This document shows positions 25,045 through 39,274 of a stretch of 43,129 nucleotides of DNA, one piece after another. The stretch's first letter is position 1; each line of letters begins with the position of its first letter. The notes beneath the pieces are model-generated. The model saw only the letters and a program-made list of their open reading frames with translations. It made no database searches and was not told the DNA's origin. The stretch is from Catenulispora pinistramenti (lineage in GTDB: Bacteria > Actinomycetota > Actinomycetes > Streptomycetales > Catenulisporaceae), in contig NZ_JAAFYZ010000070.1 of assembly GCF_018274385.1 (NCBI RefSeq), positions 1-43,129 of the forward strand, read 5' to 3'. The position numbers and the translations under genes were made by a program.

Positions 25045-25827
25045 ATGAGGGGGAGACTGGCTGTGTTGATGGTTACCGGTGCGGTGACCGGTGTGTTGGC
25101 GGCGGGTTGTTCGTCGCAGGGCACGGTGGGTTCTGGGGTGGGTACGGGTTCCGGCTTGACCGCGACCGGTAGCGCCGGTGCGCACTCCGCTGCCACTGGT
25201 TCGGCGCCGGCCACGTCGCCTTCCTCGGGTTCCGGTTCGGGCTCGGGTTCGGCCCCGCCGAGTGGCGGCGGCCAGCTGCCGGGCGAGGACGCGACGGTGG
25301 TGGTGGGCGTCGGCAAGGTCAAGGTCACCATCTACGAGGACTACCGCTGCCCGCCGTGCAAGGCCGTCCACGACCAGCTGCAACCGGTGATCAGCGCCAA
25401 GCTCGGGTCCGGCGGCATCCAGGTCGAGTACCACGCGGTCGACGTGGTCGACCACACCGCTGGCGGCACCGGCTCGCTGGCCGCCGCCAACGCTGTCAGC
25501 TGCGCCTTCCAGGCCGCCAAGTTCCAGCCCTACCGCGAGGCACTGTTCGCCGCGCAGCCGGACGAGGTCACCGATGCCTTCGCCCAGCCGGACAAGCTGA
25601 TCAGCATCGCCAAGACCATCCCGGGGCTGGACAGCCCGGCGTTCGAGAGCTGCGTCATCTCCAAGCCGTTCGCGGGCTCGATCGAGAGCACCTACGCCGC
25701 GCAGTTCGCCTCGAACAAGATCACTGGCGTGCCGGCGGTGTTCATCAACGGCGCGCAGTGGAGCGTTCCCAGCTCCGGGGACCTGGCGACCGCGTTCACG
25801 CAGGCGTTGGCTGCCGCGGGGGCTTGA
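25045..25827 (+). CDS. DsbA-like thioredoxin-fold lipoprotein
   Basis: A 260-residue exported lipoprotein with a thiol-disulfide oxidoreductase domain. The signal peptide ends in a lipobox, LAAGC, with the lipidated cysteine at C22. A Gly/Ser/Ala/Thr-rich spacer (23-80) leads to the thioredoxin fold, whose active site is C102-P-P-C105 in YEDYRCPPCKAVHD. The cis-proline loop is TGVPAVFING near the end. Relatives catalyse disulfide formation in exported proteins (DsbA/DsbG or mycobacterial-type lipoproteins). I choose the ATG at 25045 because it gives a compact signal peptide; ATGs at 25009 and 25036 are in frame and would only lengthen it. None has a good ribosome site. No partner such as DsbB or VKOR is nearby. 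Confidence 0.85.
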   Translation: MRGRLAVLMVTGAVTGVLAAGCSSQGTVGSGVGTGSGLTATGSAGAHSAATGSAPATSPSSGSGSGSGSAPPSGGGQLPGEDATVVVGVGKVKVTIYEDYRCPPCKAVHDQLQPVISAKLGSGGIQVEYHAVDVVDHTAGGTGSLAAANAVSCAFQAAKFQPYREALFAAQPDEVTDAFAQPDKLISIAKTIPGLDSPAFESCVISKPFAGSIESTYAAQFASNKITGVPAVFINGAQWSVPSSGDLATAFTQALAAAGA

Positions 25828-25840
25828 CGCGGGTTGTGCC

Positions 25841-26962
25841 TCAGCGCAGCCCCTCGAAGAACTCCCCGATATCCGCGGCGAGCACGTCCGGCACCTCCAT
25901 CGCCGCGAAGTGTCCGCCGCGCGGGAACGTCGTCCAGCGCTGCACCTGATACAGCCGCTCGTACCACGAGCGCGGCACCTGGCCTTCGGACACGAACTCG
26001 TTCGCGAACACCGCCATCGCCGTCGGCACGCGTACCCGGTCCTGCGGGCCGATCGGCGAGCCGTGCCAGCGGTTGTCGTAGTAGTCGCGCATCGATGTGG
26101 TGATCGACTCCGTCACCCACCAGATGGTGAGCATGGTCAGCAGGGCGTCGCGGTGGAAGGCGGCGTCCAGGTCGCCGTTGCTGGCGGACCACGAGCGCCA
26201 CTTGTCGAGCACCCATGCGGCCAGGCCGGCGGGGGAGTCGTTCAGTGCGTAGCCGAGGGTTTGGGGGCGGGTCGATTGCACGGCGCTGTAGCCGCGTTCG
26301 GTTGAGTCCCAGCGCTCCACCTGCGCGAGGTACGCCTGTTCCTCGGGCGTGAGTGGTGGTGTGTCGGGGCCGGTGTAGGGGGTCAGTTCCGGTGTGCTCA
26401 GGTGGATCCCGATCACGCGCGCGGGTTCCAGCAGTGCCATGTGCGTGGCGATGCCCGAGCCGAAGTCGCTGCCGCCCGCGCCGTATCGTTCGTAGCCGAG
26501 GCCCTGCATGAGTTGGTGCCACATGCCGGCGACGTGCCGTCGGTCGACCCCGGCGTGGGGCGGCCGTTGGGAGAAGGCGTAGCCGGGGAGTGAGGGCACT
26601 ACCAGGTCGAAGCGGTCGCCGAGGCGGTCCACCAGGCCCAGCAGCTCGGTGAAGGTGCTCGGCCAGCCGTGGGTCAGGATCAGCGGGATCCGGTCGCCGG
26701 TGCCGCGGTGGTGCACGAAGTGGATTCGCGCGCCGTCGATCTCGGCGGTGAAGTGGCGGTACCTGTTGAGCTCGCGCTCCGCGGTGCGCCAGTCGTACCC
26801 GTCGGCCCAGTACGCCAGCAGCTCCCGCAGGTACTCCACATCGACGCCCTGGCTCCAGGCCTTGCCGGGCGCCGGGTCCGGCCACCGGGTCCGGCCGATG
26901 CGCTCCCGTAGGTCGTTCAGGACGGCGTCCGGCACGGACACGGTGAAAGGGGTTACGCGCAT
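25841..26962 (-). CDS. Epoxide hydrolase (alpha/beta-hydrolase with EHN domain)
   Basis: A 373-residue enzyme of the microsomal-type epoxide hydrolase family. The N-terminal EHN region (residues 1-85, PFTVSVPDAVLNDLRERI and related positions) precedes an alpha/beta-hydrolase core with HGWP at 98-101 (oxyanion) and the nucleophile D166 in GGSDFGSG. The catalytic histidine is in PRGGHFAAME near the C-terminus. The reaction would be hydrolysis of an epoxide to a diol; physiological substrate unknown. It follows the small lipoprotein gene by 26 bases on the same strand, so they may share a transcript. It converges on the DsbA-like gene with only 13 bases between stops. Confidence 0.88.
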   Translation of the reverse strand: MRVTPFTVSVPDAVLNDLRERIGRTRWPDPAPGKAWSQGVDVEYLRELLAYWADGYDWRTAERELNRYRHFTAEIDGARIHFVHHRGTGDRIPLILTHGWPSTFTELLGLVDRLGDRFDLVVPSLPGYAFSQRPPHAGVDRRHVAGMWHQLMQGLGYERYGAGGSDFGSGIATHMALLEPARVIGIHLSTPELTPYTGPDTPPLTPEEQAYLAQVERWDSTERGYSAVQSTRPQTLGYALNDSPAGLAAWVLDKWRSWSASNGDLDAAFHRDALLTMLTIWWVTESITTSMRDYYDNRWHGSPIGPQDRVRVPTAMAVFANEFVSEGQVPRSWYERLYQVQRWTTFPRGGHFAAMEVPDVLAADIGEFFEGLR

Positions 26963-26988
26963 CTGCCTATGGTGTCAGGCGGTGGTTG

Positions 26989-27462
26989 CTAATCAGTGCA
27001 GTAAGGGCTCTGGTTCGAGGCGCTGAGGCTGACCAGCTTCCACTTGCTGCTGTCCGGCAGGATGCTCACCATCAGGCACGCGTGCTGGGCGACGGCGTCC
27101 TTGGCCGCGCGGTTGACGTACTCCATACTCACGCCCTCCCCGAGCAGGCACAGGATCCCGCCGCACAGTACGACCACGGCCGCGTGCAGGGCGACGGTGC
27201 TCAGGATCGGGTGGTCGGTGAGGGTGCTGGCCAGGGTCTTGGTGTCGCCGCGGGAGACGAAGCGTTCGCAAGGGGGCGTGCCGCAGACCTTGGTCGCGTC
27301 GTGGGAGGGCGTGGCTGAGGCGACTGCGGATGTGCCGCCGGAACTGGACGAAGAGGAGGAGCCCGAGTCGGCTGTGGACTTGCACGCTGCGGCGAAGAGC
27401 ATCAGCAGCGTCAGGATCAGCGCCAGGCCCGTACGGCCTCGGACATTCGTGTGGTCGGCCAT
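26989..27462 (-). CDS. Small lipoprotein of unknown function
   Basis: A 157-residue exported protein that I do not recognise. A signal peptide with lipobox FAAAC (Cys 27) is followed by a Ser/Gly-rich linker (30-50) and a globular part with five cysteines (VCGTPPC, VLCGGILC, HACL and SPYC regions). The stretch GVSMEYVNRAAKDAVAQHACL looks like the core of small actinobacterial lipoproteins annotated only as hypothetical. A GGGGGA ribosome site precedes the ATG. Co-transcription with the epoxide hydrolase is possible (26-base gap). Function unknown. Confidence 0.72.
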   Translation of the reverse strand: MADHTNVRGRTGLALILTLLMLFAAACKSTADSGSSSSSSSGGTSAVASATPSHDATKVCGTPPCERFVSRGDTKTLASTLTDHPILSTVALHAAVVVLCGGILCLLGEGVSMEYVNRAAKDAVAQHACLMVSILPDSSKWKLVSLSASNQSPYCTD

Positions 27463-27580
27463 GATTCCCCCACTGTTGTACGTAAAGGCCTGATGTACTT
27501 ACCGGCCCTTTTCCACACTAGCGCGACGTCGCCGACTGTTCCCGTGGCGATTCGGGCGAGAGACGGGGTCCGGTGCCACG

Positions 27581-28279
27581 TCATTCGGCGTGCAGGACGA
27601 AGAACAGGAAGCACAAGAACGCCGAGCGGTCCGCCCTGATCTCGTCCGGGAACAGCTCGCGGGCCCGCGGTCCCGGCGGCGGCTCGCTGATGACGGAGAT
27701 GCCGAAGCCCGCGGCGGTGAAGGCGTCGGTCATGGCGTGCAGGGGACGGTGCCAGAATTTCATCAGGGCATTGTGACCGCCGAAGCCCCACTGCTCGGAC
27801 CGCTCGCGCGTCGCGAAGTAGTCGGCCTCCGGGTCCATCAGGGTCGTCACGAGTGGGTGGTCCACCGCCACGATCAGCCGCCCGCCGGGCCGCAGCACCC
27901 GCCGCAGCTCCGCCAGCGGGGCCGACCAGTCCCGCAGGTAGTGCAGGACCAGGCACGCGACCGCGTCGTCGAACGAGTCGTCAGCGAAGGGCAGTGGCTC
28001 GCTCAGGTCGGCCAGCCGCAGGTCCGCATCCGCGCCGAGCCGCGTGCGGGCCAGTTCGAGCATCTGGACGCTGGAATCCATGCCCGTCACGACGGCGCCG
28101 CGCTCCCGCAACGCCGCGGACAGCGGCCCGGCCCCGCACCCGACGTCCAGCACCCGCCTGCCCGCCACATCCCCGGCGAGGTCCAGCATCGCCGGACGGG
28201 TGTAGTGGCCGTTGATGAGGTTGGACTCGGTCTCGGCGGCGTAGGCCTCGGCGAAGCTGTCGTAGTCGTTGAACGGCAT
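27581..28279 (-). CDS. Class I SAM-dependent methyltransferase
   Basis: A 232-residue methyltransferase of the UbiE/type-11 kind. Motif I is VLDVGCGAGPLS (43-54), the acidic residue that holds the ribose is in VTGMDSS, and the post-motif LRRVLRPGGRLIVAVDHP is clear. I start at the ATG at 28279; the frame is open upstream but overlaps the ROK gene. No Shine-Dalgarno sequence is visible. It lies 14 bases after the ROK regulator and is the last gene of the minus-strand group from 32048. The substrate is unknown; a small molecule is more likely than protein or nucleic acid on family grounds. Confidence 0.86.
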   Translation of the reverse strand: MPFNDYDSFAEAYAAETESNLINGHYTRPAMLDLAGDVAGRRVLDVGCGAGPLSAALRERGAVVTGMDSSVQMLELARTRLGADADLRLADLSEPLPFADDSFDDAVACLVLHYLRDWSAPLAELRRVLRPGGRLIVAVDHPLVTTLMDPEADYFATRERSEQWGFGGHNALMKFWHRPLHAMTDAFTAAGFGISVISEPPPGPRARELFPDEIRADRSAFLCFLFFVLHAE

Positions 28280-28293
28280 GAGGTGATCTTGCC

Positions 28294-29529
28294 CTAACCC
28301 CGAAAATAGTCCCGAATCAACTGCTCCACCGTCAGCGAGGCCCCCAGCGCCGCCGCGCCGGCCAGCACCGCGCCGCTCCCCAGGGCCGAGGTTTCCAGCC
28401 GAGGCGGGTACGGCAGGCGCATCGCGAGGCGTTCGGCCACCGGGGTCAGGAGCAGGTCGCCGTTCAGGCCGATCCCGCCGCCGAGCACGACCAGCTCCAC
28501 GTCCACCACCGCCGAGGCCACGGCCACGTAGTTGGTGATCCGGCGGGCCTCTTCGTCCACCACGTCCAGCGCCGCGGTGTCGTCGGCGCGGGCCAGCTCG
28601 AAGACACGCTCCATCGTCAGGTCCTGCTCGCCCGGGAGCTTGGCCGCCGCGTACTGCAGGATCGCCACGGCGCAGGGGTCGATCGCGGTCGGCACGTCGG
28701 GTTCGGGGCCGTGGGGGGTGTCGACGTACTCGGGTTCGAAGGCGCTGTCCAGCTCGCCGGCGGCGCCCTTGAAGCCGCGGACCAGGTTGCCGCCGAGGAC
28801 CAGGCCGGCGCCGACACCGGTGCCGATGGACAGGAACAGGAAGCTGTCGGCGGTGCCGCCGCTGCCGCGGGCGTATTCGCCGTGGGCGGCCAGGTTGATG
28901 TCGTTCTCGACCGTCACCGGGATCTGAAGGGCGGCGCTGAACTTCTCGCGCGCGGCCCAGCCCTGCATGCCGGGGACGTTGGCCGCCTCCCAGACGCTGC
29001 CGTCGTGCCGGTCCACCACACCGGGGACGCCGACCACCGCGTGCTTCACCGCCTCCGGGGCGATCTCGGCGGCGGCGGCCAGCTCGCGGGCCAGCACCAC
29101 CGCGGCGCCGATCATGCTGTCGGCGTCCAGGCCGTCGACCTCGGCGTCGCGGCGTACCACCTCGGCGCCGTCCAGGCCGACCAGGGCGGCGCGCAGGTGG
29201 CGGGCGCCGACGTCGAAGGCGACCGCGTAGGCCGCCTCGGGGCGCGGCTTGAAGAACACCGCGCCGTAGGTGAAGCCGCGGGAGGCGTCGGCCGTTTCGA
29301 CGACCAGGCCGATCTGCAGCAGGTCCTCCAGCACGGCGGAGACCGTGGGCTTGGAGATGCCGGTGGCGCGGGAGATCTCGGCACGGGAGATCGGGGCGTG
29401 CTGCTCGATCACGCGCCACACTGTGCGCAGGTTCAGCTCGCGGACCGTGGCGGAGGTGGCCGGGGTGGGCCGGGCGCCGGGTGGGTTCATCGCCCCAGGA
29501 TAGGGACGGGTCTCAGGCTGGTCGCTCAT
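28294..29529 (-). CDS. ROK-family transcriptional regulator
   Basis: A 411-residue NagC/XylR-type protein: a winged helix (about residues 30-75, ISRAEISRATGISKPTVSAVLEDL) fused to a ROK sugar-kinase-like domain (80-400). The kinase part keeps the VENDINLAAHGEYARG loop and the glycine-rich SIGTGVGAGLVLGG, but the usual zinc site of ROK proteins (Cys-x-Cys-Gly-x-x-Gly-Cys) is absent; at that place the sequence is AAGELDSAFE. It is therefore more likely a sugar-responsive repressor than a kinase. It follows the KamA-type gene by 17 bases and precedes the methyltransferase by 14 bases. Its targets are unknown. Confidence 0.86.
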   Translation of the reverse strand: MSDQPETRPYPGAMNPPGARPTPATSATVRELNLRTVWRVIEQHAPISRAEISRATGISKPTVSAVLEDLLQIGLVVETADASRGFTYGAVFFKPRPEAAYAVAFDVGARHLRAALVGLDGAEVVRRDAEVDGLDADSMIGAAVVLARELAAAAEIAPEAVKHAVVGVPGVVDRHDGSVWEAANVPGMQGWAAREKFSAALQIPVTVENDINLAAHGEYARGSGGTADSFLFLSIGTGVGAGLVLGGNLVRGFKGAAGELDSAFEPEYVDTPHGPEPDVPTAIDPCAVAILQYAAAKLPGEQDLTMERVFELARADDTAALDVVDEEARRITNYVAVASAVVDVELVVLGGGIGLNGDLLLTPVAERLAMRLPYPPRLETSALGSGAVLAGAAALGASLTVEQLIRDYFRG

Positions 29530-29546
29530 GCCTCGCTCTTGCGTTC

Positions 29547-30872
29547 TCAGTCCTCGCCGGCCGATGCCGCCGCCCGGATGTCCGCCGGGGTTCCGGGGAC
29601 GAGTTCGAGGTCGTCGATCCAGGCGGCATCTGCTGAGTAAACAGCACGGAACGGCCTGCCGACCAGACGGGGGTCACGCGCTTGCAGGTAGCGCAGTTCG
29701 AAGTAGCGGCCCGCGCCCGCTTCCTCGGTGACGCCGTCCACCACGATCTTGCCGTTGGTGGTGGACATCACCGGGCCGCGGACGGTGCGGGCCAGGCCCG
29801 GCAGGGTGCTGTAGGCGTCGCGGAAGATGGCGGCGGCGCGGGCCAGCGGGATCTTGAAGTAGTCGCGCGGGCCGGTGTCGCGGGCCACGAACATGTAGTA
29901 CGGGACGGCGCCCGCGCGCTGTTCGGCGCGCCACAGCCGGGCCCACGCCGCGGCGTCGTCGTTGACCCGGCCGATGACCGGGGCCTGGCAGTAGACGACC
30001 GCGCCGGTGTCGCGGATCCGGGCCAGCGCGGTGCGGGCGATGGCCGGCTCCAGCTCGACCGGGTGGCTCAGGTGCGCCATCAGCGCCGGGGTCTTGCCGG
30101 CCTCGGCGATCTGCTCGAACAGCCGCAAGGTGGCGTCGGCGTCGTGGTCGGTGACATAGCGGTGCGGCCAGCTGGCCACCGACTTGGTGCCGATCCGTAC
30201 GGTCTGCAGCGATTCCACGGCCAGGAACGGCTCCAGGTGCTGCCGGAGCCGCTCGGCGGTCATCACCATCGGGTCGCCGCCGGTGACCAGCACGTCGGTG
30301 ATCTCCGGGTGCCGTCGCAGGTATTCGACGGCGCGTGAGGGTTCGGGGGCGGCGAACCGCAGTTCCGGCTCGCCGACGAACTGGGCCCAGCGGAAACAGT
30401 AGGTGCAGTAGGCGTGGCAGGTCTGGCCCGCCGCGGGGAAGTACAGCAGGGTCTGGTCGTACTTGTGTTGTGTGCCGGGCACCGGGCCGGAGGCGTCCTG
30501 CGGGACGTTCAAGTCCTGCTGGTGCTCCGGATGCGGGTTCAGACCGGCCCGGATGCTCGCGATCGCCCGGGCCAGCTCGCCCGGGTCGCCGCCGTCGCGG
30601 GCCGTGGTGAGTAGCTGTTCGTCGGCCGGGGACAACATGCCCGGCTGCGGGAAGAACAAGTGGAAGATCGGGTCGGAATGTGGTTCCGACCAGTCGATCA
30701 GTTCGTTGAGAACATATTCGTTGACCCGGAACGGCAGGACCAGCGAGAACAAGCGGACGCTCTCGCGGAGCCGGGATCGGAGTCCGTACTTCGTGGCGAT
30801 CTCGTCGAGCCGGTTCGGGCCCAGGGCCTGGAACCGGTCGGCGACGGGACGGCCACCGGTGGTGTGCTGCAC
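29547..30872 (-). CDS. KamA-family radical SAM protein (lysine 2,3-aminomutase-like)
   Basis: A 441-residue radical SAM protein of the lysine 2,3-aminomutase group. The iron-sulfur cluster ligands are C152, C156 and C159 (CHAYCTYCFR), and SAM-binding stretches VLVTGGDPMVM and RIGTKSVASWPHR follow. A lysine in NGKIVVDG near residue 388 lies where the PLP-binding Lys of KamA is expected, although the local sequence differs from the Gly-rich loop of characterised enzymes. Known members interconvert alpha- and beta-amino acids (lysine to beta-lysine) or act on EF-P; this one is not close enough by eye to assign. The start is a GTG at 30872, 9 bases after the upstream membrane-protein stop, so the two are likely co-translated. 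Confidence 0.82.
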   Translation of the reverse strand: MQHTTGGRPVADRFQALGPNRLDEIATKYGLRSRLRESVRLFSLVLPFRVNEYVLNELIDWSEPHSDPIFHLFFPQPGMLSPADEQLLTTARDGGDPGELARAIASIRAGLNPHPEHQQDLNVPQDASGPVPGTQHKYDQTLLYFPAAGQTCHAYCTYCFRWAQFVGEPELRFAAPEPSRAVEYLRRHPEITDVLVTGGDPMVMTAERLRQHLEPFLAVESLQTVRIGTKSVASWPHRYVTDHDADATLRLFEQIAEAGKTPALMAHLSHPVELEPAIARTALARIRDTGAVVYCQAPVIGRVNDDAAAWARLWRAEQRAGAVPYYMFVARDTGPRDYFKIPLARAAAIFRDAYSTLPGLARTVRGPVMSTTNGKIVVDGVTEEAGAGRYFELRYLQARDPRLVGRPFRAVYSADAAWIDDLELVPGTPADIRAAASAGED

Positions 30873-30881
30873 GCCCTGACG

Positions 30882-32048
30882 CTACCTGACGCCGGGGACG
30901 GATGGATCCGAGGTTCGAAGCAGGAGATAGGCCGTGTCGGGGATCTCCCCGTAGACCCGGCGGAAGGCGGAGTCCAGCACGGCCCCGACCTGGTCCCGGT
31001 CGGCGGTCTCCAGCCGGCACGAGCGGCCGTCGTTCGCCGCCAGCACCTCGCCGACCGAGCGCCGCAGGAAGCGCTCGACGCGGCGGGAGGCGACGTAGCG
31101 GCGGCCGTCTTCCAGGTCGACGAAGCGGACCAGGTAGGTGCGCTCGATGTTGTCGTCGGTCACCGTGACCGGGGTCAGCGCCTGGTGCGGCGCGGCGGCG
31201 TGCCAGACGGCCTGGAACCGGTTGTTGACGAAGGATCCCAGCGGGCTGTCGACCATCACCTCCAGCTGTTCGGCGCGGCCGGACAGCTTGCCCACCGGGT
31301 AGAACGACACCAGCGCGCGGTCGTCCCAGCGGTACATCGTGACGTCCGGACCGGAGGAGTACAGCCGCACCTGGAAGTCGGCGGCCGAGCCGAGCGCGCG
31401 CGGGCCGCCCTCCTGCTCGAAGGAGCGGTGCAGCCGGGTGATCGTCTCCAGGTTCCGCTCCAGCATCGGGCCGAGTTCGTCGGCCCGGCCCAGCTCCAGG
31501 TCGCGCTGCTCGGCGGCCAGGGTGGTCGGGTTGATCAGCAGGACCCTGATGGACACCCCGCGCGCCACGGCCTCGCGGACCACTGCCTGGAACCGCGCCG
31601 CGTGCGGCTCGGCCAGCAGGTTGGAGTAGGTGTCCAGGATCCGGATCACGCTGTTCGCCCGCCCGGCGTTGGCCAGGAACTGCGAGTAGTCCAGTTCGGC
31701 GTGTTCCCGGACGCCGCCCTGCCCGGCGCGCTCGATGATCGGGGTGATGACGTAGATGGTGAAGACCGCGCCGATCAGGTCCGCGGCGGTGTTCAGCGCG
31801 AAGTTCGGCCAGTACGGCGCGACGGTGCGGCCGATCCAGCCCAGGGTGAGGATCGCGGCCAGACCCACGACCAGCCCGGTGATCCAGCGCGGGTCCGGGG
31901 CGCGGCGGCGCAGCCGGGGCAGCGGCCGCAGCCGGCGGATCAGAGATATGCGACGCGACCGGGACGACTCAAGGCGCGGGTATGCGCGCGGGCCGCGCCG
32001 GCCGCGTCGGTCCTCCTGATCAGAGCGTCCCCGCTCCCCGAAATCCAT
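30882..32048 (-). CDS. Two-TM membrane protein with PLD-like cytoplasmic domain lacking HKD motifs
   Basis: A 388-residue protein that I cannot name. A very Arg-rich, probably cytoplasmic N-terminus (1-53) is followed by two membrane segments (about 56-76 and 83-105) and a C-terminal domain facing the cytoplasm. That domain resembles phospholipase-D folds: IRILDTYSNLL, then VSIRVLLINPTTLAAEQR, then a second half with VTMYRWDDRALVSFYPVG and FVNNRFQAVWHA. The catalytic His-x-Lys pairs are missing, so a binding or sensing role is more likely than hydrolysis. It starts at the ATG at 32048 with no good ribosome site, and TAGCCT 8 bases ahead could serve a leaderless transcript. It is 9 bases upstream of the KamA-type gene. 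Confidence 0.65.
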   Translation of the reverse strand: MDFGERGRSDQEDRRGRRGPRAYPRLESSRSRRISLIRRLRPLPRLRRRAPDPRWITGLVVGLAAILTLGWIGRTVAPYWPNFALNTAADLIGAVFTIYVITPIIERAGQGGVREHAELDYSQFLANAGRANSVIRILDTYSNLLAEPHAARFQAVVREAVARGVSIRVLLINPTTLAAEQRDLELGRADELGPMLERNLETITRLHRSFEQEGGPRALGSAADFQVRLYSSGPDVTMYRWDDRALVSFYPVGKLSGRAEQLEVMVDSPLGSFVNNRFQAVWHAAAPHQALTPVTVTDDNIERTYLVRFVDLEDGRRYVASRRVERFLRRSVGEVLAANDGRSCRLETADRDQVGAVLDSAFRRVYGEIPDTAYLLLRTSDPSVPGVR

Positions 32049-32116
32049 GGTGCCGAAGGCTACTGGTGATGATCGAGTTCTGCCAGGGCTCGCAGGTCAC
32101 CCATGAGCTCGCGGGG

Positions 32117-32923
32117 CTACCGCCCCGGTCGCCAGGGCAGCGGCCAGTCTTTTCCTCGCAATGCGGCATCGGTCCCACCGTCACAGAACACGACCGAGCC
32201 GACGAGGAAGGAGGCCTGGTCCGACAACAGGAACGCGGCGGTGGCCGCGACTTCCTCCGGGCGCCCCGGTCGGCCGGCCGGGATGGTCTTCTCGAAGGCG
32301 GCCATGGCCTCGGCGGTGAGCCCGTCGGTGCGGGCGGCCTGGGTCATCGGGGTGTCGATCATGCCGGGGGCGACGGCGTTCAGCCGGACGCCGTCGCCGA
32401 TCCAGTCGGCGGCGCGGGTGCGGGTGTACCAGGCCAGTGCGGCTTTGGTGGCCGGGTAGGTCGGGATCGCGCTGGGGCCGCCGAGGGCGTCGGCCAGGGC
32501 GCGGGCCCGCGGTTCGTCGCCGGCCAGACAGGCTTCGGCGACGTCGGTCGACCAGTCGGGCTGGCAGGTGATGGAGTTCGAGGACGGCAGGACGACCGCG
32601 CTGCTTCCGGCCGCCTTCAACGCCGGGCGCAGACCCTCCAGGAGCGTGATCGCGCCGAAGTAGTTGACCGAGACCAGCAGCGAGCCGGGGCGGCCGGTGG
32701 CCGGGCCCAGGCCCGCGAAGGGGAGCAGGCCGTCCAGGCGGCCGTGACAGAGTTCTGTGACGGCGGCGACCGCGTCGGCCCGGCCTTCGGCCGTGCCCAG
32801 ATCGGCGTCGACGTCGGCCCCGGCCAGATCCACGCCGATCACCCGGTGGCCCTCGTCGACCAGCCAGGTGGCCAGGGTCGCGCCGATGCCGGAGGCGGCG
32901 CCGGTGACGGCTATGGTGGCCAT
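32117..32923 (-). CDS. Short-chain dehydrogenase, 3-alpha-hydroxysteroid dehydrogenase-like
   Basis: A 268-residue SDR. The nucleotide site is TGAASGIG (7-14) and the catalytic residues are S114/S115, Y156 and K160 (SSNS, YPATK). The overall pattern, including VIGVDL followed by ADLGTAEGR, GLGPATG, VNYFGA and a long insert before the active-site Tyr, closely recalls the 3-alpha-hydroxysteroid dehydrogenase of Comamonas. It would oxidise a secondary alcohol with NAD(P). The steroid assignment rests on my memory of that sequence and is not proven. It is transcribed away from the Old Yellow Enzyme homologue across a 121-base gap full of TGAG/CTCA dyads. Confidence 0.85.
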   Translation of the reverse strand: MATIAVTGAASGIGATLATWLVDEGHRVIGVDLAGADVDADLGTAEGRADAVAAVTELCHGRLDGLLPFAGLGPATGRPGSLLVSVNYFGAITLLEGLRPALKAAGSSAVVLPSSNSITCQPDWSTDVAEACLAGDEPRARALADALGGPSAIPTYPATKAALAWYTRTRAADWIGDGVRLNAVAPGMIDTPMTQAARTDGLTAEAMAAFEKTIPAGRPGRPEEVAATAAFLLSDQASFLVGSVVFCDGGTDAALRGKDWPLPWRPGR

Positions 32924-32960
32924 GGCGTGCAGCGTAGGCCGAAGCGGTGCGGAATGTAAG

Positions 32961-32998
32961 AGTGCTCATTGAGTGCTCATCGGTTATGAGAGCACTCA
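32961..32998. promoter_or_regulatory. Cluster of TGAG/CTCA dyads in the SDR/OYE divergent promoter
   Basis: AGTGCTCAT occurs twice in the same direction (32961-32969, 32972-32980), and TGAGTGCT (32970-32977) is an inverted repeat of AGCACTCA (32991-32998). Each half also forms a small TGAG...CTCA dyad. Three closely packed half-sites suggest cooperative binding by a TetR- or MarR-type regulator that would control both divergent genes. No such regulator is encoded next to them. Confidence 0.6.
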
Positions 32999-33044
32999 TT
33001 GGTTGAGAGCTCAGCGCCTCTGGCATCTTGGCGGGCGCCGTTCT

Positions 33045-34259
33045 ATGGTCCGCGCCGTGACGACGTCAGCGGCGATTCCGAACGAATCGGGCACCGGGGT
33101 GCCTGATGTCCTGGCTCCGGCGGCCCTCGGCCCGGTCCGGCTCCGCAACCGCGTGATCAAGTCCGCGACGTTCGAAGGCGCCACTCCCGAGGCCCTGGTG
33201 ACCGACCGGCTCATCGCCTACCATCGCCGCCCGGCCGCCGGCGGCGTGGGCATGACCACGGTCGCCTACCTCGCGGTGTCCCCGGAGGGCCGCACCGAAC
33301 GCCGCCAGATCCACTGGCGTCCCGAAGCCGTGCCGGGACTGCGCACGCTGACCGACGCCGTCCACGCCGAGGGCGCGGCGGTCGCGGCGCAGATCGGCCA
33401 CGCCGGACCCGTGGCCGACGCGCGCTCGAACCGGGCCACGGCCTTGTCCTGCTCGCCGATGCTGAGCCCGCTCAGCTTCCGGCGTACCCGCGCCGCGACC
33501 GCCGCCGACATCGGGCGGATCACCGCCGACCACGCCCGGGCCGCTCGCCTGGCGATCGAATCAGGGTTCGACAGCGTCGAGATCCACCTCGGCCACAACT
33601 ACTTCGCCAGCGCCTTCCTGTCGCCCCGGCTGAACAAACGCGACGACGAGTACGGCGGCTCGCTCGCCAACCGCGCCAAGGTCGCGCTCGGCCTGGCCCG
33701 CGCGGTGCGGGCCGAGGTCGGCGACCGGATCGCGGTCACCGCGAAGCTGAACATGGAGGACGGCTATCGCGGCGGGCTGCGCATCGAGGACAGTCTTCAG
33801 GTCGCTCAGTGGCTGCAGGAGGACGGCACATTGGACGCCCTGGAACTGACCGCCGGCAGTTCCCTGATGAACCCGATGTATCTGTTCACCGGCGATGCGC
33901 CGGTGCGGGAGTTCGCGGCGCAGTTCCCGCCCTTGCAACGGCTCGGGATCCGCCTGTTCGGTAAGAAGTTTCTGCGTTCCTACCCGTATCAGGACACATA
34001 TCTGATGGAGCGTGCGCAGCGGTTCCGGGCCGAACTCACGATGCCGCTCATCCTGCTCGGCGGCATCACCACGCGGGCCACGATGGACCGGGCCATGGCC
34101 GCCGGTTTCCAGTACGTCGCGATGGGCCGTGCGCTGCTGCGCGAGCCGGACCTGATAAACCGCATCGCGGCGGACGCTGCCACGCCGTCGCTGTGTATTC
34201 ACTGCAACCGTTGCATGCCGACGATATACACCGGGACTCGGTGCCCTGAGATACCTTGA
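33045..34259 (+). CDS. Old Yellow Enzyme-type NADH:flavin oxidoreductase
   Basis: A 404-residue FMN-dependent TIM-barrel oxidoreductase. The typical start LAPAALGPVRLRNRVIKSAT, QIGHAG, the substrate residues in EIHLGHNYFASAFLSPRLNKR, and the FMN-phosphate stretches LLGGITTRATMDRAM and YVAMGRALLREPDL are all present. It ends with CIHCNRCM, resembling the start of the iron-sulfur motif of 2,4-dienoyl-CoA reductases, but the C-terminal NAD(P)/FAD domains are missing, so it is a single-domain enzyme. I start at the ATG at 33045; a GTG at 33057 is also possible. Paired with a steroid-dehydrogenase-like SDR, it may act on an enone or steroid. That pairing is the only functional clue. Confidence 0.87.
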   Translation: MVRAVTTSAAIPNESGTGVPDVLAPAALGPVRLRNRVIKSATFEGATPEALVTDRLIAYHRRPAAGGVGMTTVAYLAVSPEGRTERRQIHWRPEAVPGLRTLTDAVHAEGAAVAAQIGHAGPVADARSNRATALSCSPMLSPLSFRRTRAATAADIGRITADHARAARLAIESGFDSVEIHLGHNYFASAFLSPRLNKRDDEYGGSLANRAKVALGLARAVRAEVGDRIAVTAKLNMEDGYRGGLRIEDSLQVAQWLQEDGTLDALELTAGSSLMNPMYLFTGDAPVREFAAQFPPLQRLGIRLFGKKFLRSYPYQDTYLMERAQRFRAELTMPLILLGGITTRATMDRAMAAGFQYVAMGRALLREPDLINRIAADAATPSLCIHCNRCMPTIYTGTRCPEIP

Positions 34260-34499
34260 CGGCTTCCCGGCCCGGCCGTCCCGGGCGCGTCATCCGATTG
34301 ATCTTTCAACGTGCGGCGGAAGAGCCGCACGATCCCGGCCGGCAGGCACGCTCAGCTTCCCCCGAACGGCGCATGGCGGCTCGCCACCCCCGGCCGCCCG
34401 GGAGCCAGGATGGCGGAGGTGTTCGAACACCAGGCGTCGCCTCGGGTCGGCGGGTTCTCCCGCCGCGACGGCGCTTTCTGATCCCCCGGAGGGGGAGTC
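34260..34499. other. Intergenic gap before the DUF2690-like gene
   Basis: No gene, hairpin or convincing promoter is visible in this 240-base gap. An open frame through it (34256-34624) enters the next gene out of frame and has no domain; I treat it as noise. Confidence 0.4.
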
Positions 34500-34961
34500 A
34501 TGTTCTCTCGTCGAATCGCTTCCCGGATCGGCGTCGGATTCGGTGCCCTCGCGCTGGCGAGCGCCCCGCTGGCCGCCTACGCGGCCGACACGCAGATGCC
34601 GGCCAAGGCCGCCGCCTCCTGTAGCAACCAGGGCTGCAACGGCAAGGATCCGCAGGCCACCGGCTGCTCGCAGACCTACCAGGCCCGCAACATCCGGACC
34701 GCGTCGATCATGAGCAACGGCAAGCAGGTCGGCTGGGTCGAGCTGCGCTGGTCGCCGTACTGCGGCAACAATTGGGCCCGGGTGGTCTCCACCGCCGGCT
34801 CGGCCAACGTGGCCGCGACCGCCACCCGCTCCGACGGCGCCAAGATGTCGGCGTCCGGCAAGGGCACCGTGGTCTGGACCCCGATGATCTTCGGCCGCGA
34901 CCTGTGCGTCTCGGCGACCGGGACCATCAACGGGGCCACCGCGACCACCTCCTGCGGATGA
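34500..34961 (+). CDS. Secreted Cys-rich DUF2690-like protein
   Basis: A 153-residue exported protein. The signal peptide ends near residue 28 (AAYA-AD). The mature part has six cysteines (CSNQGC, ATGC, SPYC, RDLC and the final SCG region), probably three disulfides, and the central stretch VELRWSPYCGNNWARV that I associate with DUF2690. Such proteins are common in Streptomyces and relatives and have no established function. An excellent ribosome site (GGAGGGGGAG) precedes the ATG. It is a single-gene unit closed by the hairpin at 35056-35086. Confidence 0.82.
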   Translation: MFSRRIASRIGVGFGALALASAPLAAYAADTQMPAKAAASCSNQGCNGKDPQATGCSQTYQARNIRTASIMSNGKQVGWVELRWSPYCGNNWARVVSTAGSANVAATATRSDGAKMSASGKGTVVWTPMIFGRDLCVSATGTINGATATTSCG

Positions 34962-35055
34962 CGGCGCGGCCGACCGGGCAGATGATGGAGACGGTACCGG
35001 CCAAGCGGTGTCACTGCGCGTAGCCGGCAGCAGGACCTGTCCCCTCCCAGAAGCG

Positions 35056-35124: not shown

Positions 35125-35799
35125 TCAAACCAGGTCGAGCAGCTCCGTCAGGGAACTGATCGCCGGCACGCCGGCCTCGTTCGGCGCCGCATCGCCGTCC
35201 CGCAGCATCGCGCGCCCCTGATATCCCAGCGCGACGGCGGCCGCGACCAGTTCCGGGGAGTCGTCCACGAACAGGCAGTCGCCCGGGGCCAGGCCGAGGG
35301 CTTCGCTGGCGTGGTGGTACATCCTCGGGTCCGGCTTCTGACAGCCCAGCACCGCCGAGATCGCGTAGGCGTCGAAGAAGCCGCCCAGGCCCAGGGCGTC
35401 GTGCAGATCGGGCAGGGTCGGCCAGGCGTCGGAGACGACGGCCATCGGCACGCCGCGGGCACGCAGCGCCGTCAGCGTCGGGATCACGTCGGGGAACGTT
35501 TCCAGGACGGCGGTCGGCGGGATGTCGCGAACCAGCGCGGCCAGCAGTTCCGGCGACGCCTCGACGCCGATGTGCTCCAGCATCGCGCGGTGGTAACCGT
35601 TGAGTTCCGGGGTGGTGGTCGCGGCGGCCATGACGCGGTCGCCTTCGCGGACCGCCTCGGCCAGATCCTCGTCGGTCACGTGCCGAACGTGTGCTTTCAC
35701 CGTCGCCTCGAAGTCGGCACGGGGATTCCAGCGGCCGCCGATGGGCCGCATCAGGACGCCGCCGGAGTCGAGCAGAAGCGCTTTGGGAGTCTGAGTCAC
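35125..35799 (-). CDS. HAD-family hydrolase coupled to the NHEJ operon
   Basis: A 224-residue haloacid-dehalogenase-type hydrolase (subfamily IA). Motif I is LLLDSGGVL with nucleophile D11; the second Asp of the usual DxD is Gly, as in some HAD proteins written DxGG or DxGN. Motif II is VVSDAW, the motif III lysine is in GCQKPDPRMY, and motif IV is LFVDDSPELV. Members remove phosphate from small molecules. The start is a GTG that overlaps the stop of the LigD polymerase gene by 4 bases, so it is translationally coupled to DNA end-joining genes. A role in cleaning DNA ends or phosphoglycolate is possible but is inferred only from this position. Confidence 0.82.
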   Translation of the reverse strand: MTQTPKALLLDSGGVLMRPIGGRWNPRADFEATVKAHVRHVTDEDLAEAVREGDRVMAAATTTPELNGYHRAMLEHIGVEASPELLAALVRDIPPTAVLETFPDVIPTLTALRARGVPMAVVSDAWPTLPDLHDALGLGGFFDAYAISAVLGCQKPDPRMYHHASEALGLAPGDCLFVDDSPELVAAAVALGYQGRAMLRDGDAAPNEAGVPAISSLTELLDLV

Positions 35800-36674
35800 A
35801 GCCCTGATAGTAGATCGCCGTACCGCGCGACCTGCTCCAAAGCCCGCGCCGGCGGGAACCGCAGATCCTCAGGCTGCTTCGCCGCCGCCAACTGCTCCCA
35901 CGTCACCGGGGCCGACACCGCCGGCTGCGGTGTGGCGCGCAGCGAGTACGGCGCGATCGTGGTCTTGGCGTGGGTGTTCTGCGACCAGTCCACGAACACC
36001 TTCCCGGGCCGCTCGGCCTTGGCCATGCTCGACACCACCAGATCGCGGTGCGTGCCCTCCAACGCCCGGGCGATGGTGTGCGCGAGTTCGCGGGCCTGCT
36101 CGCCCGGGACGTCGGTCAGCGGCGCGTACAGGTGCAGCCCCTTGGCGCCGGAGGTCTTCGCGGACAGCTCCAAACCGTGCGCGGACAACAGATCGCGGGC
36201 GGCCAGCGCGACCCGGACGCAGTCCACGACCGTGGCCGGCGCCCCCGGATCCAGGTCCAGCACCAGCAGATCGTGGTGCGCCTGGTCGGACACCCGCCAC
36301 TGCGGGACGTGGAACTCGATCGCCGCCAGGTTCGCCGCCCACATCAGCGAGGCCAGGCCGTCGATCAGGACGTACTGGACCTTCTTGCCGGAGCTGCTGG
36401 CCGCGATGTCCGCGGTGCGGACCCAGGACGGCCGGTGCGCGGGCGCGTGCTTGGCGAAGAACCCTGAGGCGTCCACGCCGTCCGGGTAGCGGATGAACGT
36501 CACCGGCCGGTCGGTCAGGTGCGGCAGCATCACCGGCGCGATCCGGGCGTAGTAGTCGAGGATCTCGCCCTTGGTGAAGCCGGCTTCGGGATAGAGGACC
36601 TTGTCGAGGTTGCTCAGCTTCACCGCCCGGCCCTCGATCTCAATGGTCTGCGACGCCTGCCCCTCAGGACTCAC
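35796..36674 (-). CDS. ligD: NHEJ polymerase/primase (LigD polymerase domain, stand-alone)
   Basis: A 292-residue protein equivalent to the polymerase domain of LigD. It adds nucleotides to broken ends and fills gaps during non-homologous end joining. The start AVKLSNLDKVLYPEAGFTKGEILDYYARIAPVMLPHL is diagnostic, the metal-binding pair is D140 and D142 (VLDLDPG), and the third acidic residue lies in FVDWSQN. In many bacteria this domain is fused to the ligase; here it is separate. Its GTG start lies inside the ligase gene (11-base overlap). The symbol applies to the domain; some annotators would number it as a LigD homologue. Confidence 0.9.
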   Translation of the reverse strand: MSPEGQASQTIEIEGRAVKLSNLDKVLYPEAGFTKGEILDYYARIAPVMLPHLTDRPVTFIRYPDGVDASGFFAKHAPAHRPSWVRTADIAASSSGKKVQYVLIDGLASLMWAANLAAIEFHVPQWRVSDQAHHDLLVLDLDPGAPATVVDCVRVALAARDLLSAHGLELSAKTSGAKGLHLYAPLTDVPGEQARELAHTIARALEGTHRDLVVSSMAKAERPGKVFVDWSQNTHAKTTIAPYSLRATPQPAVSAPVTWEQLAAAKQPEDLRFPPARALEQVARYGDLLSGL

Positions 36675-38241
36675 GGACCACCTCCGCGGCGTCCTTGTCG
36701 GGCCGGATCCCCTTGAAGACGGGGTGTCGCAGCCGGCCCTTCGACGTCCACTCGCCGAACGTCACCTCGGCCACCACCACCGGCTCGACCCAGGTGGCCA
36801 CCCGCGCGTCGACGACGTCCACGGCCGTCGCGAACGGGCTGTCCGGCACCGCCAGTTCCGCCAACGCCTCCAGCAGGACCCGGCGATCGTGTTCGGTGAA
36901 GCCGCTGCCCACCTTGCCGACGTAGCGCAGCCGGCCGGCGTCGTCCGGCACTCCTAGCAGCAGCGCGCCGATCTGTGTTTGTCGACCGATCTGTGTTTGT
37001 TGTTGGTATCCCCGGGTGCGGCGACCGGCGGCGTCCTGACTCTTCAGCGGGGTGAAGCCGCCGATGACCGCGGACTGCGAGTCGGTCAGCTTGATCTTGC
37101 GCCACGCCGGCGAGCGCGTCCCGGGCTGGTAGGAGGAGTCCAGGCGCTTGGCCACCACGCCTTCCAGCCCGGCGGCGCGCGCCGCGGCGAGCACGTCGGC
37201 GACCGGGGTGTCGGGGAACGTCGGCGGGGTCTGCCAGTGCGGTCCGGACAGTTCCAGGGACTCCAGGAGCTCGCGGCGGTCTTTGTAGGGGAGGTCCAGG
37301 GTGGAGCGGCCGTCCAGATGGAGCAGGTCGAAGATCAAGTAAGAGGCCGGATTCGTCCGGGACAGCCGGACCGCTTCCGATCCGCGGGTGCCGAAACGGG
37401 TCTGGAGCGCGCCGAAGCTGACCTTGCCGGCGTCGTCCAGGGCGATGATCTCGCCGTCGAGCAGGAGGTGTGCGCTGCTGACCGTCTTGGCCAGGGCCTT
37501 GATCTCGGGGTAGGTGTCGGTGAGGTCGTTGCCGTTGCGGGAGCGCAGCCTGGCCCGGCCGCCCTCGATGCGGCACAGGGCCCTGATCCCGTCCCACTTG
37601 AACTCGGTGGCCCAGCCGGTGCCGGCACCGATACCGGCTGGGCCACCGATGCCGGTGCCGGTGCCGGTGCCGGTCGGGGCGGTGCCGGGGATCGCGAGCA
37701 TCGGCCGCAGGTCGTCAGGGACGGCTGCGAAGTCAGAGTCCTGACCCTTCTCGCGGTGGATCATCCAGTCCGCGCCGCCGGTGCGGAACAGGGTGTAGCG
37801 ACCGGAAAGGCGTTCGCCCGCCAGTTCGACTTTGACCTCGTCGTCGGTCCATTTCTCCGGGGTGTAGGTGCCGCGGTCATAGGTGGCGACGGTTCCCGCG
37901 CCGTATTCGCCGGCCGGGATGCGTCCGGTGAAGTCGGCGTATTCGACCGGATGGTCCTCGGTGCGCACGGCGCGGTGATTGCGCCTGGGATCGGTGGGGA
38001 CGCCTTTGGGCAGCGCCCAGGAGACCAGGACGCCGTCGTGTTCCAGGCGGAAGTCCCAGTGCAGGGCGGTGGCGCGGTGTTCCTGGACCACGAAGATCGG
38101 CTGGCGGTTCTTTCCGCTTCGCGCGCGCTTGCCCGGCGCCGCCCGGGGAACCGGCTCGGGGGTGCGTGCCGCGTCGCGCTTGGCGCGGTACTCGCGCAGC
38201 CGGTCTCCCGGCACCGGGGGAGGAGGCGCGGCGGGGGGCAC
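36664..38241 (-). CDS. ligD: ATP-dependent DNA ligase with 3'-phosphoesterase domain (LigD-type)
   Basis: A 525-residue fusion. The N-terminal phosphoesterase domain (about 45-165) has FVVQEHRATALHWDFRLEHDG and the metal-binding His and Asp residues, and processes 3' ends. The ligase core carries the adenylated lysine K215 in TEFKWDGIRA, with LLLDGEIIALD and VAKRLDSSYQPG further on, and a C-terminal OB fold. Between the domains is a Gly/Thr repeat (189-209, GTGTGTGIGG and more), and in the OB fold a Gln/Thr repeat with two copies of QTQIG that comes from a DNA duplication at 36969-37000. The start is a GTG at 38241, 64 bases from the divergent Ku gene. It seals double-strand breaks bridged by Ku. 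Confidence 0.9.
   Translation of the reverse strand: MPPAAPPPPVPGDRLREYRAKRDAARTPEPVPRAAPGKRARSGKNRQPIFVVQEHRATALHWDFRLEHDGVLVSWALPKGVPTDPRRNHRAVRTEDHPVEYADFTGRIPAGEYGAGTVATYDRGTYTPEKWTDDEVKVELAGERLSGRYTLFRTGGADWMIHREKGQDSDFAAVPDDLRPMLAIPGTAPTGTGTGTGIGGPAGIGAGTGWATEFKWDGIRALCRIEGGRARLRSRNGNDLTDTYPEIKALAKTVSSAHLLLDGEIIALDDAGKVSFGALQTRFGTRGSEAVRLSRTNPASYLIFDLLHLDGRSTLDLPYKDRRELLESLELSGPHWQTPPTFPDTPVADVLAAARAAGLEGVVAKRLDSSYQPGTRSPAWRKIKLTDSQSAVIGGFTPLKSQDAAGRRTRGYQQQTQIGRQTQIGALLLGVPDDAGRLRYVGKVGSGFTEHDRRVLLEALAELAVPDSPFATAVDVVDARVATWVEPVVVAEVTFGEWTSKGRLRHPVFKGIRPDKDAAEVVRES
36969..37000. repeat. Direct repeat CGATCTGTGTTTGT within ligD
   Basis: The 14-bp sequence occurs at 36969-36982 and 36987-37000, within the OB-fold part of the ligase. 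It is A/T-richer than its surroundings and encodes QTQIG twice. It keeps the reading frame. Confidence 0.7.
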
Positions 38242-38305
38242 CGTTCCATGACATCCCGGGCCCGGCCGGGGTGCGAGTCCGGATGATCCGAATTAGCGTC
38301 GGGGC

Positions 38306-39274
38306 ATGCGGGCGATCTGGAGCGGCGTCATCTCCTTCGGCATGGTGACGGTGCCGGTGAAGATGTTCGGCGCGACCGAGGAGAAGCGGGTCGCGTTCCA
38401 CCAGGTGCACGCCGCCGACGGCGGCCGGGTGCGGCAGAAGCGGGTCTGCGAACTGGACGGCGCCGAGGTGCCGACGGCCGACATCGCCAAGGGGTACCAG
38501 CTGCCGGACGGGGACGTGGTGGTGCTCACCGCCACGGACTTCGAAGGGCTGCCGGAGGCGATCGCGAAGACCATCTCGGTCGAGGCGTTCGTGCCGGAGG
38601 AGCAGATCGACCCGATCATGTATTCGAAGTCGTACTACCTGGCGCCGGACAAACTGGGCGTGCGCCCCTACGCGCTGCTGCGCGACGCGATGGCCGCCTC
38701 CGGGCGGGTGGCGGTGGTGCGGTTCGCGATGCGGGAGCGGGAGAGCCTGGCCGCGCTGCGGGTGCGCGACGACGTGCTCACGCTGGAGACCATGCTGTGG
38801 GCCGACGAGATCCGCAAGCCCGACTTCGACTTCCTGGACTCCAAGGTCGAGCCGAAGACCGCCGAGCTGAAGATGGCCGAACTGCTGATCGACTCGCTCA
38901 GCGCCGACTTCAACCCCGAGGACTACCACGACAACTACCGCGAGGCGCTGGAGGAGATCATCGAGGCGAAGGTCGCCGGCCGCGAGGTGGTGACCCCGCC
39001 GGCGCCGGCCGAGGGCGGGGCGCAGGTGATCGATCTGATGGCGGCGCTGAAGGCGAGTGTGGAGGCGGCGAAGAAGACGCGCGGGGCGGGGGAGGAGAAG
39101 GCTGAGAAGCCGGCGGCGAAGAAGAGCACTGCGAAGAAGACAGCTGCGAAGAAGGCCGCGACACCCGCGCGCGCGGCGAAGGGGGCGCGAGGCGAGACGA
39201 AGACCACGGATCTGCACAAGCCCGCGCGTAAGAAGCCCGCTACCAAGTCGACGTCTACCCGCCGCAGCGCCTGA
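38306..39274 (+). CDS. ku: Ku protein for non-homologous end joining
   Basis: A 322-residue bacterial Ku. The ring-forming core starts at once (MRAIWSGVISFGMVTVPVKMF) and runs to about residue 235, with VCELDGAEV, IDPIMYSKSYYLAPD and FNPEDYHDNYREALEEII. Ku homodimers thread onto DNA ends and recruit LigD. The C-terminal tail (about 255-322) is a Lys/Ala repeat (AAKKSTAKKTAAKKAAT and similar), as in other actinobacterial Ku proteins, where such tails increase DNA binding and threading. It is divergent from the ligD-type operon with 64 bases between starts, so both directions share a control region. Confidence 0.94.
   Translation: MRAIWSGVISFGMVTVPVKMFGATEEKRVAFHQVHAADGGRVRQKRVCELDGAEVPTADIAKGYQLPDGDVVVLTATDFEGLPEAIAKTISVEAFVPEEQIDPIMYSKSYYLAPDKLGVRPYALLRDAMAASGRVAVVRFAMRERESLAALRVRDDVLTLETMLWADEIRKPDFDFLDSKVEPKTAELKMAELLIDSLSADFNPEDYHDNYREALEEIIEAKVAGREVVTPPAPAEGGAQVIDLMAALKASVEAAKKTRGAGEEKAEKPAAKKSTAKKTAAKKAATPARAAKGARGETKTTDLHKPARKKPATKSTSTRRSA

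Follow-up and report, generated by a model that had tools for sequence, protein, structure and literature searches.

A gene pair for a PLD-like membrane protein and a probable glutamate 2,3-aminomutase in Catenulispora and other actinomycetes

Methanogens use beta-glutamate as a compatible solute, and the compound has been reported in Nocardiopsis halophila according to the passages of PMC1224877 that concern this compound. In the sections of PMC11284099 that deal with incednine, the radical enzyme IdnL4 is proposed to form beta-glutamate, with IdnL3 decarboxylating the product to 3-aminobutyrate, and disruption of the idnL4 gene is cited in support. Genes for glutamate 2,3-aminomutase and beta-glutamate decarboxylase are listed, in parts of PMC9230918, for the producers of salinilactam, micromonolactam and lobosamide, and eam genes are described in portions of PMC9337991 as standing under Na+ riboswitches. 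Here we describe a gene pair that encodes a possible relative of these enzymes, located in a 43,129-nucleotide stretch of Catenulispora pinistramenti DNA (contig NZ_JAAFYZ010000070.1, positions 1 to 43,129; hereafter the window).

Both genes lie on the minus strand. The first (30882-32048, ATG start, 388 amino acids), here called TMPLD, encodes a protein with two predicted transmembrane segments, a cytoplasmic part that resembles phospholipase D (PLD) and DUF5919 domains but is devoid of the HKD motif, and a further C-terminal region. The second (29547-30872, GTG start, 441 amino acids) encodes a KamA-like radical S-adenosylmethionine (SAM) enzyme, probably a glutamate 2,3-aminomutase of the IdnL4 type. 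Homologues of both were found in other species, in support of the two open reading frames (ORFs) being real genes. We consider it on balance probable that a glutamate 2,3-aminomutase is encoded here alongside a membrane protein whose role may be to regulate the enzyme or to anchor it. If so, the lysine 2,3-aminomutase annotation of a large, mainly actinobacterial family would have to be corrected, a gene behind the beta-glutamate of bacteria such as N. halophila would be indicated, a protein partner would be added to a reaction whose salt control in the cited papers is RNA-based, and an uncharacterised family of PLD-like membrane proteins would become accessible to functional study.

Conservation of the gene pair

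Conservation was assessed in 80 related loci kept from 560 candidates of a collection scan, in 99 genomes of the order and in longer flanking stretches. TMPLD was found directly before the KamA-like gene in 14 distinct genomes, ten of them of Catenulispora, three of Streptomyces (G012, G066 and G076) and one of Catellatospora bangladeshensis (L103); loci L032 and L033 were not counted separately because their KamA proteins are the same as those of G023 and G025. The order and strand of the pair were identical in the three genera, at identities of 37-42% for TMPLD and 53-57% for KamA, and the other neighbours differed. The coupling of the two genes, which the original prediction had suggested from a single locus, is borne out as a conserved pair. 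No earlier description of it was found in the open-access papers that were searched.

In the sample of the order, long KamA matches of at least 50% identity were present in 21 of the 99 genomes, and TMPLD matches of at least 185 bits in 13, all 13 with KamA adjacent; the Streptomyces partners scored 185-189 bits. The window's KamA-like protein, the single match to the KamA family model in its genome (G000), was 97% identical to the protein of the sister genome G005 and 89% to that of C. rubra. The TMPLD profile had matches in 11 of the 296 genomes of a phylum sample, strong ones in G000 and G012 only and matches of 20-33 bits in the others, and a search of plasmid records with TMPLD gave zero matches. 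A C-terminal KamA fragment was seen in one Streptomyces genome (G033; L131:7543-7776), at the syntenic site between an ilvE-like gene and a transporter gene, and this genome had no TMPLD match.

Could the two genes be neighbours by inheritance only, TMPLD being one of several DUF5919-like membrane proteins with no functional link to the enzyme? The window's genome does contain further TMPLD-like paralogues, which adjoin unrelated genes. Moreover, the four genomes sampled from other genera of the family all encode a double-domain TMPLD-like protein and lack a KamA match; this protein lies beside a gene of the MBL-SCP2-Rieske type and scored 73 to 169 bits, the upper value falling little short of the 185-189 bits reached by the Streptomyces partners. 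That mere inheritance would have kept order and strand across three genera in otherwise different neighbourhoods, and would have left all of the 13 closest TMPLDs of the order sample next to KamA, is harder to accept, and we judge this explanation possible but somewhat unlikely.

The four double-domain proteins (L164, L165, L166 and L167) are 663-832 amino acids long. The gene beside them is similar in the four loci and encodes, in L166, MBL, SCP2 (Rv3818-like) and Rieske domains; nearby genes resemble, by eye, those for keto-acid dehydrogenase subunits.

The history of the pair was studied with two trees. The larger one, built without the duplicates L001 and L002, comprised 101 rows, 97 of the family and four references; short fragments (e.g. 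L023 and L031) never entered. In the smaller tree of 40 chosen family rows, from which the long-branch rows L064, L067 and L022 were excluded, the KamA partners of TMPLD were divided between the two sides of a branch supported at 100/100. Forcing these partners into one clade was worse by 103 log-likelihood units (p-AU 2.9e-5) in an approximately unbiased (AU) test that was carried out once the first tree was known and with the TMPLD group defined by gene context. The identities of TMPLD and KamA co-varied (r 0.98, 36 pairs), and for both proteins the Streptomyces and Catellatospora sequences were more alike than either was to those of Catenulispora. The co-variation is dominated by the difference between within-genus and between-genus pairs, and the KamA-associated TMPLDs group only weakly (71/74). 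The pair either is ancestral and was repeatedly broken up, or arose at least twice.

The KamA-like enzyme and its probable substrate

The structure model of the KamA-like protein (mean predicted local distance difference test score, pLDDT, 86; 43 sequences) matched lysine 2,3-aminomutase (LAM, PDB entry 2a5h) with a Z-score of 32.4 over 347 residues (residues 3..434 of the model) at 19% identity; the next-best entry had a Z-score of 14.6. The cluster motif CxxxCxxC (C152, C156 and C159) was kept in all 99 rows of the family alignment, among which there are near-copies and the window locus is represented three times. K375 is aligned with the invariant lysine of the LAM-like references, which we take to be the pyridoxal phosphate (PLP) lysine of LAM (Lys337), and was present in 98 of the 99 rows; in the odd one, L071, the match stops at residue 367. 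An early reading by eye that the PLP lysine is replaced by arginine was ruled out by this alignment, in which K375 is retained. The assignment to the KamA-type radical SAM enzymes made in the original prediction is thus upheld by the LAM machinery and the LAM fold.

The family differs from LAM at R331. This arginine occupied, in 99 of 99 family rows, a position at which all seven LAM-like reference rows have aspartate, and in the HMMER alignment to the 2a5h chain it stands, in a gap-free part, opposite position 293 (Asp). Asp293 of LAM binds the side chain of lysine. At the same position the clostridial glutamate enzyme (EAM) reportedly has a lysine, Lys332 (Ruzicka and Frey, 2007). The replacement of Asp293 by arginine in the family suggests an acidic substrate. 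Both R331 and K375 were also found in all six plasmid-borne homologues that were fetched (two from Streptomyces and one each from Rhodococcus, Mycetohabitans, Amycolatopsis and Nocardia).

Gene context points in the same direction. When 86 loci were searched for an aminotransferase-fold gene within 2.5 kb downstream of KamA and on the same strand, such a gene was detected at 32 of the 36 loci whose enzyme is 60-75% identical to that of the window (L036, L071, L148 and L153 lacked it), often overlapping KamA by 4 bases, and at three of 48 more distant loci, one of them on the opposite strand. In Salinispora pacifica (L076) KamA is followed by Aminotran_1_2, a VinK-type acyltransferase, an AMP-ligase, another AMP-ligase encoded on the opposite strand, and an acyl carrier protein; parts of this type are described for beta-amino-acid macrolactams in sections of PMC11284099 and PMC10662134. 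Since the context of the relatives points to glutamate, the annotation "lysine 2,3-aminomutase", carried by 13 of the 20 records listed among the 133 plasmid records that matched the enzyme, is probably wrong.

That label is nevertheless one of the arguments for a different view, according to which the enzyme acts on another substrate (lysine or a compound with a different side chain), or has the LAM fold without catalysing aminomutation, and makes some other metabolite. The highest-scoring curated models were the generic KamA and AblA_like_2, and the contexts of the family vary, an example being the cassette on Rhodococcus plasmid pDK3 with genes of the SidA/IucD/PvdA and tRNA-ligase families. 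Taking into account that arginine stands at the LAM Asp293 position in every row, that the closest relatives outside Catenulispora adjoin an aminotransferase-fold gene, and that one of these relatives belongs to a VinK-type cassette, beta-glutamate being a reported intermediate for incednine in the relevant passages of PMC11284099, we find this view unlikely.

Several observations nonetheless count against a glutamate 2,3-aminomutase. The protein scored below the cut-off of every KamA-type model that it matched: 118 bits against 199.2 for TIGR00238, 94.1 against 525.4 for the lysine 2,3-aminomutase model TIGR03820, and 74.9 against 650 for the glutamate 2,3-aminomutase model TIGR04368, the lysine-type models (94.1 and 95.0 bits) being higher than the latter. 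D332, adjoining R331, is likewise invariant, and a shift of the alignment by one residue would undo the charge argument. The activity of IdnL4 was unobserved in vitro, as stated in the part of PMC11284099 devoted to it, and the isotope feeding results for salinilactam A were not always consistent with the cluster, according to a portion of PMC9230918. Finally, the family is also present in other biosynthetic contexts such as pDK3, thus the substrate may vary.

In pDK3 (L149:7935-14729) KamA comes first and is followed by genes for a cupin, a MupA-like monooxygenase, a SidA/IucD/PvdA monooxygenase, a member of the class I tRNA ligase family and a saccharopine dehydrogenase, a run that resembles N-N bond forming pathways. 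A Nocardiopsis-like KamA was also noticed in a record titled Myxococcus qinghaiensis (L110:7986-9305), which could be due to horizontal transfer or contamination.

Weighing these points, we regard glutamate as the probable substrate of the window enzyme. With the help of a [4Fe-4S] cluster, SAM and PLP, an IdnL4-type aminomutase would shift the L-glutamate amino group from C2 to C3, and Arg331, in place of the aspartate of LAM, would pair with the side-chain carboxylate. The product of this rearrangement would be beta-glutamate (3-aminoglutarate), which is able to serve as an osmolyte and is the best-supported product. The beta-amino acid suggested in the original prediction can thus be given a probable identity. 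No IdnL3-like decarboxylase gene adjoined KamA in the window or at two Catenulispora loci tested, and the best match of the decarboxylase-like protein of L076 in the window's genome was only 34% identical. With neither a close relative of that protein nor an adjoining gene, it is unlikely that beta-glutamate is turned into 3-aminobutyrate by a dedicated neighbour; it is probably itself the final product (a solute) or feeds into the synthesis of another compound.

The membrane protein TMPLD

The two-transmembrane architecture noted originally was confirmed by two hydrophobic segments, at about residues 55-73 and 83-105, which follow a basic N-terminus. The description of the cytoplasmic part as PLD-like without HKD proved more uneven. 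The absence of the catalytic motif stands, as not even H-x-K, let alone the HxKx4D of PLD superfamily enzymes, occurs in the window TMPLD, and HxK was also absent from eight other KamA-associated TMPLDs. The PLD-like character itself is weak in the window protein and firmer in two double-domain homologues: DUF5919 (PF19319) scored 18.7 bits in the former, below the gathering score of 23.5, and 34.8 and 25.6 bits, above the cut-off, in the latter, in which PLDc_2 matches were below cut-off. Among the other TMPLDs, L120 scored 22.8 bits and L103 gave no match. The structure model (pLDDT 52.6, four sequences) had the TrmBL2 entry 5box as its top Foldseek row (E 6.3e-4, root-mean-square deviation 23), which can serve as a lead only. 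Models of anti-phage defence proteins matched neither TMPLD nor KamA of the window; one double-domain homologue weakly matched DrmC.

The PLD-like domain of TMPLD appears to be catalytically dead and would most likely be a ligand-binding or scaffolding domain. A dead PLD-like domain, a membrane anchor and a position beside an iron-sulfur enzyme or an MBL-SCP2-Rieske protein would fit a regulatory or scaffolding subunit. The core of the proposed system would be a two-gene operon, TMPLD followed by the KamA-like gene, in which the presumably co-transcribed membrane-anchored protein would modulate the enzyme or determine its location. A sensing function of TMPLD is speculative.

Neighbouring genes, the osmolyte question and comparison with known systems

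The KamA-like gene is followed on the minus strand by a ROK-family repressor-type gene (28294-29529, 411 amino acids; 117 bits with PF00480, and N-terminal winged-helix matches) and by a gene for a class I SAM methyltransferase (27581-28279, 232 amino acids, Methyltransf_11). The ORFs and the spacings of 9, 17 and 14 bases in this run of four genes agree with what had been noted, and the small same-strand gaps count in favour of the proposed single pathway, in which a beta-amino acid would be formed and then methylated. ROK does adjoin KamA throughout Catenulispora, in nine of nine genomes with sufficient flank (the contig of the tenth ends too early), at distances from about 6 bases in several genomes to about 260 in G005. 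Outside the genus, a ROK-family gene occurred within 4 kb downstream of KamA in 10 of 96 loci, at 27-32% identity; eight of the ten were on the strand of KamA, and one (L072) was the next gene called. None of these remote genes adjoins TMPLD, and nine of the ten match from residue 103 on only, without the DNA-binding part; the genes of these ten loci look like ROK kinases. The methyltransferase occupies this place in only two of the eight Catenulispora genomes with enough flank, the window's genome and its 97%-identical sister G005. The four-gene order is thus not conserved, the idea of a methylated product loses its basis, and a common four-gene pathway, largely refuted in this way, is very improbable. 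In the preferred two-gene arrangement ROK would be a genus-level addition, perhaps a local regulator, and the methyltransferase would be a chance neighbour.

Upstream of TMPLD, an SDR gene (32117-32923, minus strand) is separated from it by 68 bases. Elsewhere in the window (35796-39274), a LigD polymerase part, a DNA ligase and Ku were recognized by eye, likely a non-homologous end-joining locus.

An osmolyte role of beta-glutamate remains speculative here. The idea is reasonable in view of the solute function of beta-glutamate, of the eam genes under Na+ riboswitches (see above) and of a homologue in N. halophila DSM 44494 (L093, 7956-9320; 55% identity), which lies beside plsX- and argS-like genes (by eye). 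A plsX-like gene was present no more than four genes away from KamA in 31 of 99 loci, and the recurrence of one KamA clade at a chromosomal site near argS- and plsX-like genes suggests a primary-metabolic role. The bacteria that carry this clade at such a site belong to the Nocardiopsidaceae and Streptosporangiaceae; ten such loci had ROK-family genes within 4 kb.

Other observations count against the osmolyte role. Rfam searches at gathering score gave no match in window positions 25500-35000, and no riboswitch was found in 16 related loci, where one antisense RNA in L076 was the sole match; control of the window genes by a riboswitch was therefore dropped. The genes around the Streptomyces TMPLD loci look, by eye, like ilvE, urease and agmatine deiminase genes and not like osmotic genes, and members of the KamA family also occur in Thermobifida and Nonomuraea, which are not halophiles. 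The most far-reaching version of the proposal, a membrane sensor-enzyme pair in which a dead PLD-like ligand-binding protein gates a glutamate 2,3-aminomutase that makes beta-glutamate as a compatible solute in actinomycetes, seems quite unlikely to us. If it were true, the argS/plsX-linked genes of Nocardiopsis would be the missing source of the beta-glutamate of N. halophila.

Compared with known systems, TMPLD is similar in its cytoplasmic part to DUF5919 and PLD-like domains, with DUF5919 exceeding the cut-off in two double-domain homologues, but differs from them in the sub-threshold score of the window protein, the two transmembrane segments and the lack of an HKD motif. The enzyme shares the predicted fold, the radical SAM motif and the PLP lysine with LAM (KamA/AblA, 2a5h), from which it is set apart by the Asp293 to Arg replacement, the low identity over the structural alignment and scores below the family cut-offs. 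With clostridial EAM (TIGR04368) it would have in common the reaction and a basic residue at the LAM Asp293 position (reportedly Lys332 in EAM), whereas it scores far below the cut-off and belongs to a separate sequence family. The eam genes under Na+ riboswitches, as presented in parts of PMC9337991, provide a precedent for salt-linked beta-glutamate synthesis; the sensor there is RNA, whereas here no such RNA was found and the neighbour is a membrane protein. The closest parallel is IdnL4 of the incednine pathway, for which the same reaction is proposed. The link to IdnL4 is by gene context: relatives of 60-75% identity adjoin an aminotransferase-fold gene, and that of S. pacifica lies in a VinK-type cassette. 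Unlike in the IdnL4 system, the Catenulispora gene has no decarboxylase-like gene next to it and is paired with the gene of a membrane protein.

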